Below are positions 55,162 through 61,783 of a stretch of DNA of 64,000 bases, one piece after another. Position numbers and translations under genes: made by a program. Positions within the stretch are counted from its first letter, which is position 1. Each line of letters begins with the position of its first letter. The notes under the pieces were generated by a model, which saw only the letters and a program-made list of their open reading frames with translations, did not search any database and was not told the DNA's origin. Origin of the DNA: Caulobacter segnis (GTDB taxonomy: Bacteria; Pseudomonadota; Alphaproteobacteria; Caulobacterales; Caulobacteraceae); NCBI RefSeq assembly GCF_029543125.1, contig NZ_JARQWW010000001.1, positions 248,001 through 312,000 on the forward strand, in the 5' to 3' direction.

Positions 55162-56973
55162 TCAGGCGGCTTGGCGGACGCCCGATGCATGGGCGGCGGT
55201 GTGCCCCTCGATCCGGAAGCGGTCCACCAGACCGCCCAGGGTCGCGGTCTCCCCGCGCAGGGACTGCGCGGCGGCGGTGGCCTCTTCGACCATGGCGGCG
55301 TTCTGCTGAACCACCTGGTCCATCTGGTTGATGGCCGAGTTGACCTGATGCAGGCCGGTGGCCTGCTCCTGGGCCGAGGCGGCGATCTCGCGGATGCGCT
55401 CGTCGATGCTGACCACCTGATCGACGATGCGGCGCAGGGCTGCGCCGGTCTGACCGACGAGATCGACGCCCGCCGACACCTGCTGCTCGGAGGCGCCGAT
55501 CAGGGCCTTGATCTCCTTGGCCGCTTCGGCCGAACGCTGGGCCAGGGCGCGCACTTCCGAGGCGACGACCGCGAAGCCCTTGCCGGCTTCGCCAGCCCGC
55601 GCCGCCTCCACGCCGGCGTTCAGGGCCAGCAGGTTGGTCTGGAAGGCGATCTCGTCGATGACGCCGATGATGTTGCCGATTTCCCGCGAGGAGCTTTCGA
55701 TCTGGCCCATGGCGCCGACGGCCTGGTCCACCACCTTGGCCGAACGATCCGCGTCCATGCGCGCGTCGGCCACGGAGGCCGACGCGGTCTTGGCCCCGTC
55801 GGCGGTCCGGCGGACAGTGGCGGTGATCTGGTCGAGGGCGGCGGCGGTCTCCTCCAATGCGGCGGCCTGCTGCTCGGTGCGGCGGGACAGGTCGGAGGAG
55901 GCGTTGGCGATCTCGTCCGAGCTCGACCGCACGCTGCTGGTGCTGACATTGATGGAGCGCATGGCGCTCATCAGTTCGCCCATCGCCCGGTTGAAATCGT
56001 CCTTCAGGCTCTGCGAGCGCGGCGCGAACTCCGCGGTGATGCGGTGGGTCAGGTCGCCGTCCGCCAGACGGCTGAGCGCTTGGCCGAGAGCGTCAACGGC
56101 GACGGCGTCCTCCTTGGCCTGACGGGCCTTGTCCGCCTCGCGGGCGGCGCGTTCGCTTTCCGAAAGATTGCGGTCGGCCTCGCTGCGGGCCTCCAGGGCG
56201 ATCTTCTCCAGGGCGGCTTCCTTGAAGGACAGGACCGCGCCGGCCATGTCGCCCAGTTCGTCCTTGCGGCCGACAGCCGGCACGTCCACGGCGTTGTCGC
56301 CGCCGGCCAAACGGCGCATGGCCTGGGTCATGGCGGCCACCGGCGATGCGATGGTCCCCGACAGCAGCCAGTTCATCAGGCCGGCGATGGCGATGGCCGC
56401 CACCGCAGCGATCGCCAGGGTCGTCACCATGGCGGTGGCGGCCGCGTCCTGCGCAGCGTTGCGGGTCTTCACCTCGGCGTTGGCGGTCGTCTGAATCTCA
56501 GAATAAAGCGCGCGCAGTTCGCCCAGCGACTTCTTGCCGACCAGGGCGACGGCGGTTTCACGGCCAGCAGGGTCGCTCATGGCGGATACGGCTGGATCGC
56601 CGACCTCCGCCCGCCACTTCGTCATGGCCTCGCGCATCTTCTGGGCGCGGGCCTTCTGGGCCGGCAGCTTGGTGGTCTCCTCGAAGTCATTGAGGGCCGC
56701 ATCGAAGGCGGCCTTCTCTTCGGTATAGGTTTCCAGGAACGCCGGGTCGCCCAGCAGAGCGTAGCCACGCACGGCGTTCTGCTGCTCCAGCACGCCCTTC
56801 AGCAGGCCCTCGCCCTTGCCCGCCACGAGCTGGCCGCGAAGAGCCGCCGTGGACGCCGTATCCAGCTGCGAAAGACTGCTGAGGATCAGCCCCGTCGCCA
56901 CGAGAAAGGCGGCGATGACCGCGCCGAAAGCCACCACGAGCTTGGCTCGTATGCGAAGATTGTTGAACGACAT
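55162..56973 (-). CDS. Methyl-accepting chemotaxis protein, periplasmic-loop type
   Basis: The 603-residue receptor has a first membrane helix ([19 protein letters not shown]), a ligand-binding region of about 140 residues with a CHASE3-like [13 protein letters not shown] pattern, a second helix ([19 protein letters not shown]), HAMP units ([20 protein letters not shown] and a second near 300), and the signalling hairpin tip [20 protein letters not shown]. Methylation helices flank it. The C terminus has no CheR/CheB-docking pentapeptide. A terminator follows, and two palindromes lie upstream. Confidence 0.93.
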
Positions 56974-57029
56974 GCTACGCCCCGAAGCAGAAATATCGAA
57001 GCGTAGCCGTAAGGGCCGAAATACAATCC

Positions 57030-57081
57030 AAGGTTAACCGAGTTAAACCTTGATCGCCTCGCGTTGCGTCAAGCTGACGCA
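57030..57081. promoter_or_regulatory. Palindromes upstream of the chemoreceptor gene
   Basis: At 57065-57081, TGCGTCA-AGC-TGACGCA is a perfect inverted repeat and matches 15 of 17 bases of the site at 47721. At 57030-57051, AAGGTT and AACCTT enclose ACCGAGTTA-like bases, with 6-bp perfect arms. The second lies 57 bases, the first 92 bases, before the start at 56973. Confidence 0.5.
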
Positions 57082-57089
57082 TCACCTGT

Positions 57090-58247
57090 TCAGCGAACAA
57101 GGCTCCGCGCATCGACATTCACTGCCTCGATCGGCTGTCCGCGACACCGGTCGTCCGTACGCAGAGCATTGCAGGCCGCAGCGGCGCCGTCCGGCAGCCG
57201 TACGAAGTAGCCCCCGGCGAAGCGCGGGTCGGGCCGCATGTAGTCGGTGGAGATGTACTGCGCGCCGCTGGCGAAGGCGGCGTTGCGGCGGCGCGGGTCA
57301 TTGGCGCGCGCCTCCCAGGTGTCGGCGTCAGCACGGGTGCGCACGACGAAGCCGGCTTTCACGGCGGCCTTGATGCGCGCCTGTTCGGCGATGGGGTCGT
57401 TGAGTGTCAGATAGGCGGCGGCGGGGGACGTCTCGTCCGTGTTCACGAACATGGCGCGGCCTTCCAGCGACCGGCGCCCGCCGCGATAGACGGCGACCTT
57501 CTCCGGGCTCTCATCAAGGGCGAAGAACACCTTGCCCCGCGCCGCGCCGAGGGTCGGCCAGCCGCCGGCCAGAACCGCATCACGCAGGGTCGCCTTCTTG
57601 CCCTGGACCTGATCAGGGGTGATCAGCTCGGCTTCCGAAAAGACCGAGCGGATCTCTGCGTCCAGAGCGTCGAACGCCTTGGCGTCATAGGCTGGCGCGA
57701 CCACGCCGCCGGGCAGGTTCGGCCCGCCCTCCTTGGCGTTGATCATGATCAGGATCGGCGCGTGGGTGGGGTTCGCCTTGGACCAGGCGCGGACTTCGCC
57801 CAGGCAGGCGACGAAGGTCAGACAGGTGGAGCGGAAGTCCACGTCCTGCATGTGCAGAACCTTGTAGCCGGGCCTCGCCATGACCGCGGCGACGGCGGGC
57901 GACAGCGTCTCCTCCTTGCCCAGCGCCGTCTTCGGATGGGCGTACAGACCGCCGGCCGGATCCCGGGCCACGTCGATTTCAAGCTGGCGCGCGCCGCCGT
58001 CCAACTGCTGCGTCAGAGGGAGATGGCCGTAGTCGATGCCCAGAGCGCGCTGACCGCCGGCGGCGACCATGGCCGCCAGTTCGGCCGGCGGAAGGTGCTG
58101 CTTGTAGCTGTTGTGGGTGCCGACCGCGACGAGGTCGTTGAGCTTCAGCCCCTGCTCCATCCGGCCGCGCACGCAGGCGTCCTCGGTCGATGCCGGCGTG
58201 CAGGAAATGGCGGACGCCGCCGAGGCGGCGAGGAGGAAAGCAAGCAT
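57090..58247 (-). CDS. Secreted phosphoinositide-specific phospholipase C-like protein
   Basis: The 385-residue product starts MLAFLLAASAASAISCTPAS, a signal peptide. The PI-PLC-C1 pattern is clear: VAVGTHNSYKQHLP (catalytic His), ARQLEIDVARDPAGGLYAHP (calcium-site Glu/Asp), YKVLHMQDVDFRSTC (second His) and the later YISTDYMRPDPRF. The catalytic residues of the family are present. Its substrate may be a phosphoinositide or another phosphodiester. It is flanked by two chemoreceptor genes on the same strand. Confidence 0.88.
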   Translation of the reverse strand: MLAFLLAASAASAISCTPASTEDACVRGRMEQGLKLNDLVAVGTHNSYKQHLPPAELAAMVAAGGQRALGIDYGHLPLTQQLDGGARQLEIDVARDPAGGLYAHPKTALGKEETLSPAVAAVMARPGYKVLHMQDVDFRSTCLTFVACLGEVRAWSKANPTHAPILIMINAKEGGPNLPGGVVAPAYDAKAFDALDAEIRSVFSEAELITPDQVQGKKATLRDAVLAGGWPTLGAARGKVFFALDESPEKVAVYRGGRRSLEGRAMFVNTDETSPAAAYLTLNDPIAEQARIKAAVKAGFVVRTRADADTWEARANDPRRRNAAFASGAQYISTDYMRPDPRFAGGYFVRLPDGAAAACNALRTDDRCRGQPIEAVNVDARSLVR

Positions 58248-58309
58248 GGAGCCTCCGACTTTTGCGGCAGCTCTATTCCGCTTTCACGACAGCACTGCGT
58301 CAGCGCGGC

Positions 58310-59746
58310 CTAGGCGACGAAGCGCTCACGCGTCTCCTGCAGCGGGGCGTGCGCCGCTCCCTGCTCCAGGGTGAAGCGTTCGACCATGGTGCTCAGGCCG
58401 ACAGCCTGCTGGTCCAGGGCGCGGGTGGCCGAGGCGCTCTGCTCGACCATGGCGGCGTTCTGCTGGATGACCTGATCCATCTGGTTCATGGCCTTGTTGA
58501 CCTGCTCCAGGGCGGTGGACTGCTCCACGGCCGAATGGGCGATCTCCTGAACGAGGTTGGAGATCTCGCCCACCTTGCCGACAATGGCGGCCAGGGCCTC
58601 GCCGGTCTGGCCGACCAGGGCGACGCCGTTCTCCACCTGCTGGCCGGATCCGCCCACCAGGGCCTTGATCTCCTTGGCCGCCTGGGCGGAACGCTGGGCC
58701 AGGGCCCGCACTTCGGAGGCGACCACGGCGAAGCCCTTGCCCGCATCACCGGCGCGGGCGGCCTCCACGCCGGCGTTCAGGGCCAGCAGGTTGGTCTGGA
58801 AGGCGATCTCGTCGATCACGCCGATGATCTGGCCGATCTCCTGCGAGGACTCGGCGATCAGGCCCATGGCGGCCACGGCGCGCTTGACCACCTGGCCGCT
58901 GCGCTCGGCGTCTTCACGGGCCTGGATGACCACGCCGGTCACCTGTTCGGCGCCCTGGGCGGTGCGGCTGACCGTGGCGGTGATCTGGTCGAGGGCGGCG
59001 GCGGTCTCTTCCAGGGTCGCGGCCTGATGCTCGGTGCGCTGCGACAGGTCGTCGGAGGCGCGGGCGATCTCCAGCGAACCGGTGCGCACGGCGCCGGCGG
59101 CGCCGGCCAGGCCGCGGATCGTGGTCTCCAGCTGGGCTACGGCGGCGTTGAAGTCTTCTTTCAGCTCACGGTACTCGGCCGCCACTTCCTCGGTCAGGCG
59201 GACGGACAGGTCGCCCTCGGCCAGCTTGGCCAGTTCACCGGCCATGGCGTCGACCAGCTTCTTCTGCTCGCGCCCCGCGGCCTCGAAGGCGGCTTCGGTC
59301 TCGCGCAGGCGACGGTCCACATCGCGGTGAACCTCGGCGGCCTGAGCTTCAAGCCGCGAGCGGGCCAGGCCGTTCTCGCGGAAGACCTCGACGCTGCGGG
59401 CCATCTCGCCGATCTCGTCGCGGCGGTTCGCGCCGGGAATGGTCACGTCGAACTCGCCCGAGGCCAGCCGACGCATGGTCGCCGACATGCCGCCCATGGC
59501 CGAGATCACCAGACGCTCGAAATAGATGGCGCCGAGGATCACCCCGATCACGGTGCCCACACCGACGGCGATGCTGACACCGTCAGCGATGCGCAGAATG
59601 GCGTCCGCACGGGCTCCCGCGCCCGCCACCATATGCAGCAGAGCGACGTTCAACGCCGCCAGCGCAAGCATGGCCACCATCCCCATGAACCAGGAGACGC
59701 GCATCCGCGACTTGATCGTCCGCAGCATCAGATGAGCTCCGCTCAT
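58310..59746 (-). CDS. Methyl-accepting chemotaxis protein, short-loop type
   Basis: The 478-residue protein has two membrane helices close together ([20 protein letters not shown], then [20 protein letters not shown]), so almost no periplasmic sensor; it may sense through the membrane or the cytoplasmic HAMP region. HAMP ([20 protein letters not shown]), a second HAMP-like segment and the signalling tip [18 protein letters not shown] follow. GGAG sits 9 bases before the ATG at 59746; the start at 59728 is an alternative. It is the second receptor flanking the phospholipase gene. Confidence 0.93.
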
Positions 59747-59816
59747 AAACAGAAGCTCCACCGCTAAGACTGAGTCGTTTATGGCGCATTGATATGGATC
59801 AGTATTCTTTCGCGGC

Positions 59817-60455
59817 TTAGCGCCGCGCTTCGAACGCCATGCGGACGGCGAGACCTCCGAGCACCGTGCCCATGATCCAGCGCTGCACCTTGGCCCAGGT
59901 CGGTCGGGCCGCCAGGAACGCGGCCACGCCGCCGGCCGCGTACACCACCATCCCGTTCACCGAGACGCTGACGATGATCTGGGTCGATCCCAGAAACAGG
60001 CTCTGGCCCAGCACATTTCCATGCTCCGGGCGGATGAACTGCGGCAGCAGCGACATGTAGAGGACGGCGAGCTTGGGGTTCAGCAGGCTGGTGGTCAGCC
60101 CCATGCCGAACAGCCGCGCCGGTCGATGGGCCGGCAGTCGCCGGACCTGGAACGGCGACACCGCGCCGGGCTTGGGTGCGTTCCAGGCCAGCCACGCCAA
60201 ATAGGCCGCCCCACCAAAGCGCAGGATGTCGTAGGCGATCGGCACCGCCATGATCACCGCCGTGATCCCGGCCGCGGTCAGCGTCATGTAGACGAAGAAG
60301 CCGAGCCCCACCCCGCCGAGGGAGATAAACCCCGCCGCGCGGCCCTGGCTGATGGAGCGGGACAGCAGATAGAGCATGTTGGGCCCCGGCGTGCAGGCCA
60401 TGCCGAATGTCACCAGGGCGAACGCCGCCCAATCCTTGAACTCAACCATCGCCAT
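59817..60455 (-). CDS. LysE/RhtB-family amino acid exporter
   Basis: The 212-residue product has six hydrophobic segments with the LysE/RhtB motif [20 protein letters not shown] near the start and [17 protein letters not shown] in the middle. Members export amino acids such as homoserine, threonine or lysine; specificity is not readable. It is divergent from the D-amino-acid-oxidase-like gene, a possible functional pairing. Confidence 0.9.
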
Positions 60456-60613: not shown

Positions 60614-61783
60614 ATGAGCCAGACCGCACCGCGCCTGGACCGCCGCAGCCTGATCCGGATGGGCGCCGCCTTGGGCGGACTTCAGGCCTTGGGCGGCTGC
60701 GCGACCGTGGCGTCCCAGCCGACGTCACTTCTGATGCCCGCGCCCGGCCTCGCTCCCGTTCGGGCGCGACCGGAGAACATCTTCAACATCACCGTCTGTT
60801 CGCGGCCGTTCCGCGCCGCCGGTCCGCGGCTGGATGCGGAGACGGTGGGCGACAAGCTGGTGGTCCATAATTACGGCCACGGCGGCAGCGGCTGGTCCCT
60901 GTCCTGGGGCTCGGCCGAGATCGTCGTCGGCAAGGCGTTGGCCGGCGGCGAGAAGGATATCGCCGTCATCGGCTGCGGCGCCATGGGCCTGACCGCCGCC
61001 ATCACCGCCCAGCGCGCCGGCGCACGAGTGACCATCTACGCCAAGGAGCTGATGCCGGACGTTCGCTCCGCCCGCGCCACCGGTGTGTGGTCGCCGGATT
61101 CGCGCATCGCCCTGAGCAGCCAGGCGCCCGCCGGCTTCGACGTCCTGTGGGAGCAGATGTGCCGCCGGTCGTGGAAGACCTATGCCCGCTATCTGGGCGT
61201 CGACGGCGAGCCGGTGAGCTGGACCGACCGCTATGTCCTGTCCGACAAGCCCTTCGCGCCCTCGGCTGATCCCATGGGCTTCGCGCATTACGAGCGCATG
61301 GTCCCGGACCTGACGCCGCGCCCGCAGACCTTGGCGCCCGGCGAGCACCCCTTCCGCGTCGCTCACGCCCGGCGCGTGCCGACCCTGATGTTCAATGTGA
61401 TGGAGCTGGGACGCACCTTGATGGGCGACTTCCTGGTCGCCGGCGGCAGGCTGGAGGTCATGGACTTCAAGAGCCCCGCCGACCTCGCCGCCCTGAAGCA
61501 GAAGGTGGTCATCAACTGCACCGGCTATGGCGCGCGGGCGTTGTGGAAGGACGAGACGGTCACGCCGGTGCGCGGTCAGCTCGCCTGGCTGCCGGCCCAG
61601 CCCGAGGTGACCTATGGCCTTTATTACCGCCACGTCTCCATGCTGGCCCGCCGCGACGGCATCATCCTCCAGCAGACGGGAGCCGATGAAAGCTACGGCT
61701 ACGGGATCGAGGACGAACGGCCAGACCGGGCGGAGGCGGAGGCCGCCATCCGCACCATCGCGGCGTTGTTCGCAAAGGCCTAG
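60614..61783 (+). CDS. Tat-exported D-amino-acid-oxidase-like flavoprotein with permuted domain order
   Basis: The 389-residue protein begins with a Tat signal ([20 protein letters not shown], Arg10, Arg11) followed by Cys29, which may be lipidated. Residues 60-100 then hold what is normally the end of D-amino acid oxidase: [15 protein letters not shown] and [15 protein letters not shown]. Only after that comes the FAD motif [12 protein letters not shown] (117-128). The C terminus ([19 protein letters not shown], ending [11 protein letters not shown]) matches the part that normally precedes RPxRxxxRLE. So the C-terminal segment has moved to the front. All key residues seem present. It is the most unusual protein here. 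Confidence 0.85.

Follow-up and report, generated by a model that had tools for sequence, protein, structure and literature searches.

The window, that is, the whole 64,000-nucleotide stretch of Caulobacter segnis DNA that was analysed, contains an open reading frame whose product has the motifs of a D-amino acid oxidase (DAAO) in a rearranged order (Table 1). In addition to the landmarks listed in the table, the protein carries RPFR (residues 64-67), HNYGHGG (85-91) and SWG (97-99) ahead of its FAD-binding motif and NCTGYGAR (301-308) and VRGQ (319-322) behind it, and it ends at residue 389. The three glycines of the GCGAMG motif are invariant in all 71 rows of our alignment, which comprises the window protein and 70 of the best 80 loci described below, near-copies and the locus L070 having been left out. 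In the R. emersonii DAAO, GxGxxG is assigned to the N-terminal region (PMC6697736). The FAD motif of the window protein stands behind the signal peptide and the moved segment, and not at the N-terminus as in DAAO (EC 1.4.3.3). An earlier note on this DNA had described canonical DAAOs as having the FAD motif near the N-terminus and the RPxR...HNYGHGG segment at the C-terminus, an order that we also see in the natural-order comparators discussed below, and had placed this C-terminal segment ahead of the FAD motif in the window protein. That order stands, while the rough positions given for the two elements (60-100 and 117-128) are refined to 64-99 and 120-125.

Table 1. Location of the gene and of the landmarks of its product in the window
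Feature	Position	Strand	Basis
Permuted DAAO-like flavoprotein gene (389 aa, ATG start)	60614..61783	+	Exact open reading frame
Tat-type signal peptide, RR at residues 10-11, lipobox-like LGGC with Cys29	60614..60700	+	Sequence
Moved segment (residues 57-105), corresponding to the DAAO C-terminus (RPxR, HNYGHGG loop, SWG, next helix)	60782..60928	+	Alignments with 7ct4, the DAO profile and the canonical model
Arg64, aligned with Arg308 of R. emersonii DAAO, which binds the substrate carboxylate	60803..60805	+	Ungapped 7ct4 alignment
Gly91, aligned equivalent of Gly335 of R. emersonii DAAO (substrate amino contact)	60884..60886	+	Ungapped 7ct4 alignment
Remaining DAAO fold, residues 114-389, N-terminal part of a normal DAAO	60953..61780	+	Pfam DAO match
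FAD dinucleotide-binding GxGxxG (GCGAMG), residues 120-125	60971..60988	+	Sequence
Ser342, at the site of the carboxylate-binding Tyr of DAAOs	61637..61639	+	Alignments

The N-terminus reads RRSLIRM...ALGGC, with a twin arginine, a hydrophobic stretch and a lipobox-like cysteine, as judged by eye and by pattern counts. The earlier note had recognised a Tat signal ahead of the moved segment, which agrees with these features; the lipobox was absent from its description. The twin arginine is present in 70 of the 71 aligned rows, the sole row without it (L037) starting at a contig edge, and it is combined with a lipobox-like motif in 43 of the 71; another search pattern gave 78 of 79 for the twin arginine and 41 of 79 for the combination. 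Four distant members (L021, L144, L165 and L166, the last three judged by eye) have no recognisable signal. The window protein itself is very probably exported, as predicted from its signal.

A gene for a LysE-type amino acid exporter (59817-60455, - strand) diverges from the DAAO-like gene; apart from this exporter, no gene for a cytochrome c, a deacylase or a transporter lies beside it. The neighbourhood of the window gene comprises recR and LysE; a pattern search of 23 other loci, 15 of them with only about 1.5 kb of flank, found neither beside the homologue in any of them. Further away, the region 55162-59761 (- strand) holds two chemotaxis genes, both of the methyl-accepting type, at 55162-56973 (CHASE3) and 58310-59761 (HAMP), and between them a gene for a Ca2+-dependent phosphoinositide phospholipase C (57090-58247, - strand; PF16670, 401.2 bits).

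Order of the DAAO segments

In a phmmer comparison with PDB sequences, residues 114-329 of the window protein aligned with residues 24-245 of the 7ct4 chain and residues 56-105 with residues 320-369, which is the swapped order. The swap was seen in five PDB alignments (7ct4, 6rkf, 8hy5, 9vpf and 1c0i), with one of the two pieces weak in 9vpf and 1c0i. Used alone, the fragment 46-113 matched the C-terminal part of 17 of the 17 DAAO or D-aspartate oxidase sequences found (E 6.1e-8 to 0.0068), and the 18th match, a DUF269 protein at E 0.042, is unrelated and weak. A profile of the 71 rows likewise returned 17 DAAO or D-aspartate oxidase sequences at the top of the PDB list, and in 16 of these the best stretch paired the N-terminal segment of the profile with the C-terminal part of the chain, the exception being 1c0i, where it was the FAD part.

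The Pfam DAO profile (PF01266) gives the same picture. Residues 115-386 match positions 1-297 of its 353 positions with 78 bits (cut-off 27.9), and the N-terminal fragment matches positions 308-351 with 22.8 bits, which alone is under the cut-off. The two Pfam parts are thus complementary and swapped, and the match to the profile is not collinear. As controls, the natural-order relatives L121 and L163 each give a single DAO match that covers nearly the whole profile. The C-terminus of the window protein stops where the moved piece would attach, as the earlier note had put it.

A canonical model made from 7 natural-order bacterial DAAOs was then used to scan rotations of the mature window protein. 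In its native order the protein is split by the model into two swapped domains (82.8 and 48.7 bits), with residues 46-104 falling on model positions 253-310, while rotation yields one continuous domain of up to 126.5 bits that spans model positions 4-310. Of the 361 cut points, the 15 that score best are confined to residues 101-115, and rotation near 105-114 restores the match. A chance match was rejected, since 100 shuffles of the mature sequence reached at most 0.9 bits.

For the comparison across homologues we used a second model, made from 8 natural-order proteins. Rotation raised the best-domain score in 133 of the 134 distinct homologues (mean 91 to 148 bits, with a median span of 308 of 316 model positions), the lone exception being L144, which scored equally either way; an earlier comparison that used another split of the proteins gave an improvement in 79 of 94. 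When the 8 natural-order DAAOs, which are the model's own members, were permuted artificially, they showed the same two-piece split as the window family.

The joint between the two parts is also regular. In 116 of the 134 homologues the distance between the WG at the end of the moved motifs and the GxG of the FAD motif is exactly 20 residues, and a motif search found no second copy of the segment at the C-terminus of any of the 134, nor any evolutionary intermediate with both copies among them. Direct fusion of the natural C- and N-termini would give this pattern of a fixed spacing and a single N-terminal segment. The central claim of the earlier note, a circular permutation of the DAAO order with its breakpoint between the secretion signal and the displaced segment, is borne out on both counts: the swapped PDB and Pfam pieces and the gain upon rotation speak for the permutation, and the breakpoint falls between the signal, which extends to Cys29, and the segment at 57-105. 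From these comparisons we regard the circular permutation as almost certainly real.

Extent and origin of the family

The search for homologues with the same order, which the earlier note had suggested, returned 134 distinct permuted members. Among 61 related genomes, 25 had a match at E<=0.001. A permuted protein is encoded in 21 of these (L001-L021, of which one is truncated at a contig end), and the remaining four (L022-L025) have only more distant proteins without such a segment. A scan of one genome per species gave at least 571 confirmed stretches among 590 candidates. The 80 named loci are the best 80 of these stretches, so that natural-order proteins may be among the other 491; the permuted order was recognised in 79 of the 80 by pattern and in the remaining one, L070, by reading the translation. 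In a sample of the class, 15 of 385 genomes matched at E<=1e-15, as did 20 of 398 in a sample of the phylum, and the loci returned were permuted in both. In the phylum of Edaphobacter aggregans, 12 of 119 genomes matched at E<=1e-10, 10 with permuted and 2 with natural-order proteins (L163 and L164). Altogether, 172 loci were collected, of which 156 are permuted (the 134 distinct members after removal of repeats), 8 are of natural order and 8, including L070, are neither by pattern.

The permuted order is spread over Pseudomonadota and Acidobacteriota, and one case each was found in Verrucomicrobiota and in Actinomycetota. Members occur in Caulobacter, Phenylobacterium, Brevundimonas, Sphingomonas, Sphingobium, Acetobacteraceae, Bradyrhizobium, Reyranella, Xanthomonas, Dyella and Paucibacter, and further in the Acidobacteriota isolates Edaphobacter aggregans and Bryobacterales F-183, an Opitutaceae metagenome genome, a Rhizobium plasmid and Nonomuraea. 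Four records of a plasmid collection matched, and the two with an annotated gene (Kozakia and Rhizobium) are both labelled 'FAD-dependent oxidoreductase'. The permuted order is no one-off: by sequence comparison it belongs to a large, conserved family, which indicates that the architecture is old and widespread. In one genome of the Edaphobacter phylum (G849) the permuted profile has four matches, at 269-303 bits; L156 is among them, and a single contig carries two of the four about 13 kb from each other. The longest end branch in the tree (6.49) is that of L120, a very divergent permuted protein that lacks the twin arginine and comes from a 1.9 Mb genome of the window's class.

The natural-order relatives served as a reference for the origin of the family. 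The bacterial DAAO-like proteins L121, L163, L164 and L168-L172 align with the permuted family along their length in both modules and carry the tail at the C-terminus. L121 comes from the window's own genus, in which it serves as an internal control, and has its FAD motif at residue 11 and HNYGHGG at 340; its genome (G004) also encodes a permuted protein. When 249 genomes of the phylum were searched with L121, no other natural-order relative was found at E<=1e-8, the 4 matches being the moved segments of permuted proteins. A tree was built from separate alignments of the two modules, with 102 permuted proteins, 8 of natural order and 3 ThiO-like ones as its rows. The 8 natural-order proteins occupy one side of a branch with support 99/100, so that one switch suffices if the outgroup is ignored. 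When the tree is rooted with the ThiO outgroup, four permuted proteins (L143, L144, L165 and L166) join the natural-order eight (89/89), and only 11% of 200 bootstrap trees unite all permuted rows. The branches to this outgroup, 4.55 on each side, are very long, so that the direction of the change and a strict single origin can be read from this tree only tentatively. The simplest reading of the sequences would be a single ancient permutation.

Substrate, electron acceptor and possible function

For the R. emersonii DAAO, PMC6697736 names Tyr244 and Arg308 as the residues that bind the substrate carboxylate and Gly335 as the one that binds the amino group. The ungapped alignment with 7ct4 sets Arg64 of the window protein on chain residue 328 and Gly91 on residue 355. 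We infer that 7ct4 is the R. emersonii DAAO, on the sole basis that four residues named in that paper (Asn53, Arg308, Gly335 and Gln339) all fit the chain at an offset of 20, presumably a tag. Neither Arg64 nor Gly91 varies in any of the 71 rows, and thus the carboxylate Arg and the Gly of the amino contact are kept. The Tyr is replaced by Ser342 in the window protein and is found in 4 of the 71 rows of the window's clade, as far as can be judged in a lid region that aligns loosely and lies outside the 7ct4 match. A conserved Tyr334 (68 of 71 rows) might substitute for the lost carboxylate Tyr. In 11 more distant permuted rows a Tyr stands at the Ser342 site in 9, and all 11 have a GG[TS] motif where DAAOs have LGGT. 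All 71 rows of the window's clade have the pair Ser163-Arg164, and none of the 11 distant rows does; Ser163 falls on the Asn53 position in the 7ct4 alignment, which would put the pair near the substrate pocket. The loss of the Tyr together with the invariant pair suggests that the substrate may differ from those of classical DAAOs. A D-amino acid or a related compound is a reasonably likely substrate.

With regard to the electron acceptor, 9 of the best 80 loci (L066, L074, L075, L076, L081, L089, L093, L100 and L105) have a gene for a small CxxCH protein immediately after the permuted gene and on its strand, some flanks being cut by contig ends. In Kozakia baliensis an annotated cytochrome c gene begins 5 bases after the permuted gene. 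The partner in L074, the one of the nine that was scanned, is Cytochrome_CBB3 by Pfam, and looser CxxCH neighbours occur upstream in L053 and 539 bases downstream in L057. Eight of the nine paired loci and Kozakia form one clade of 9 rows with support 100/99, while L081 is not in the tree. A search of the window's own genome with the partner cytochrome gave only a weak best match (E 3.7e-4). The gene pairs favour a dehydrogenase for the paired clade; for the window protein we lean slightly towards a dehydrogenase rather than an oxidase.

Taken as a whole, an exported, permuted DAAO-like flavoenzyme is the explanation that we judge probable, and it can be outlined as follows. The C-terminal DAAO segment, as placed by the alignments, sits between the signal peptide and the FAD domain and is tied to the first FAD-binding strand by a short, near-constant joint; the new C-terminus, by the same alignments, ends just before the usual start of the moved segment. 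The moved piece would fold back to its usual place in the DAAO fold, where Arg64 and Gly91 would hold an alpha-amino acid or a similar alpha-substituted acid over the flavin. Hydride would pass from the alpha-carbon to N5 of FAD, and hydrolysis of the imino acid would yield ammonia and a keto acid. Less certainly, the electrons may leave the reduced flavin for a c-type cytochrome of the periplasm or for the respiratory chain, oxygen not being the main acceptor. The full scenario is put forward only tentatively: a single ancient permutation would have given rise to a large Tat-exported family whose members work in the periplasm, oxidising D-amino acids (or amino acids that D-containing compounds release) and passing the electrons to c-type cytochromes.

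Two alternatives concern the architecture itself. The reading of the N-terminal segment as an extra domain resembling a DAAO tail, or as an assembly or frameshift artefact, is extremely improbable and was rejected, since the same order recurs in 134 distinct proteins, the motif search found no copy at the C-terminus, and the Pfam parts are complementary. A domain swap, in which the moved segment would pack into an adjacent subunit and complete the fold there, is compatible with the sequence alone, but the short and near-constant junction is what would be expected for closure within one molecule, and we consider a swap quite unlikely.

The remaining alternatives accept the permutation and differ in the chemistry. 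The protein could be a true oxidase that uses oxygen for the periplasmic oxidation of D-amino acids and forms hydrogen peroxide. Its closest solved relatives are indeed oxidases, and 71 of the best 80 loci are without such an adjoining cytochrome gene; on the other side, the paired clade keeps the cytochrome c gene in 9 of 9 rows, and export beside the respiratory chain makes an acceptor of the cytochrome type available. We give this possibility appreciable weight, short of an even chance. The fold could also have moved to another substrate (an N-substituted, esterified or acidic amino acid or a cyclic amine), D-amino acids then not being the natural one. The replacement of the Tyr and the clade-specific Ser163-Arg164 pair point in this direction, as do the scores of the window protein with the NCBIfam models for glycine oxidase ThiO (TIGR02352, 24.4 against a cut-off of 250.8) and D-amino acid dehydrogenase (NF009074, 20.9 against 494), which are far below threshold. 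We find a change of substrate possible but doubtful, given that the Arg and Gly that would hold the alpha-carboxyl and alpha-amino groups are invariant; in addition, the Amidohydro_3 enzyme gene located 12 bases after the cytochrome gene in L074, with an amidohydrolase subfamily as its best NCBIfam match (227.5, cut-off 340), would fit the release of free amino acids.

The exported, permuted flavoenzyme that we favour can be compared with several known systems. With DAAO and D-aspartate oxidase (EC 1.4.3.3 and 1.4.3.1) it shares GxGxxG, NCTG..AR, RGQ, RPxR, HNYGHGG, WG and the catalytic Arg and Gly, whereas the permuted segments, the Tat-type signal with its lipobox and, in its clade, the replaced Tyr set it apart. 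ThiO and D-amino acid dehydrogenase belong to the same broad DAO superfamily. With periplasmic flavoprotein dehydrogenases that have a cytochrome c partner, the permuted family has in common the export signal and, in one clade, the downstream gene for a c-type cytochrome; none of these dehydrogenases is known to use a permuted DAAO fold. In the titles and abstract openings of the open-access papers searched, no report of a permuted DAAO was found, and the large permuted family appears undescribed in the sources searched. A D-amino acid oxidase is listed among the proteins released by Asaia bogorensis (PMC12502724).

Among flavoenzymes DAAO is a textbook case, and in all 17 solved sequences of DAAO or D-aspartate oxidase that were matched the segment is at the C-terminus. 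A conserved and widespread natural circular permutant would be a clean evolutionary experiment on this fold, indicating that the tail which caps the flavin can also be supplied from the N-terminal side. The permuted order also explains the 'FAD-dependent oxidoreductase' label of the two annotated homologues and the truncated appearance of the Pfam match. If the link to the cytochrome were general, the family would represent an unrecognised route by which many soil, plant-associated and acetic acid bacteria oxidise D-amino acids or related amines in the periplasm. In the full scenario outlined above, the enzyme would be a respiratory D-amino acid dehydrogenase with a permuted DAAO fold, distinct in build from DadA.

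Other neighbours of the permuted genes vary between loci. In the neighbour table, which covers 83 loci apart from L028, L049, L072, L075, L078, L098, L099, L103, L105 and L166, TonB receptors, PF00144 serine hydrolases and S9 peptidases recur, but these are common families and were given no weight as evidence of function. In Paucibacter sp. TC2R-5 a class C beta-lactamase gene (L104:5131-6351; NF033085, 513.7 bits, cut-off 415) directly follows the permuted gene, a PF00144 protein also adjoins the homologue in L102, and weak class C or AmpH-like matches below the cut-off were obtained for a protein in L091 and for one encoded two genes upstream in L167. At L165:5054-6667 and L166:5047-6753, the permuted genes of Nonomuraea and the Rhizobium plasmid, the products of which have no recognisable signal, are each followed by a gene for a thiamine-diphosphate enzyme, which suggests a second, cytosolic role of the permuted fold.
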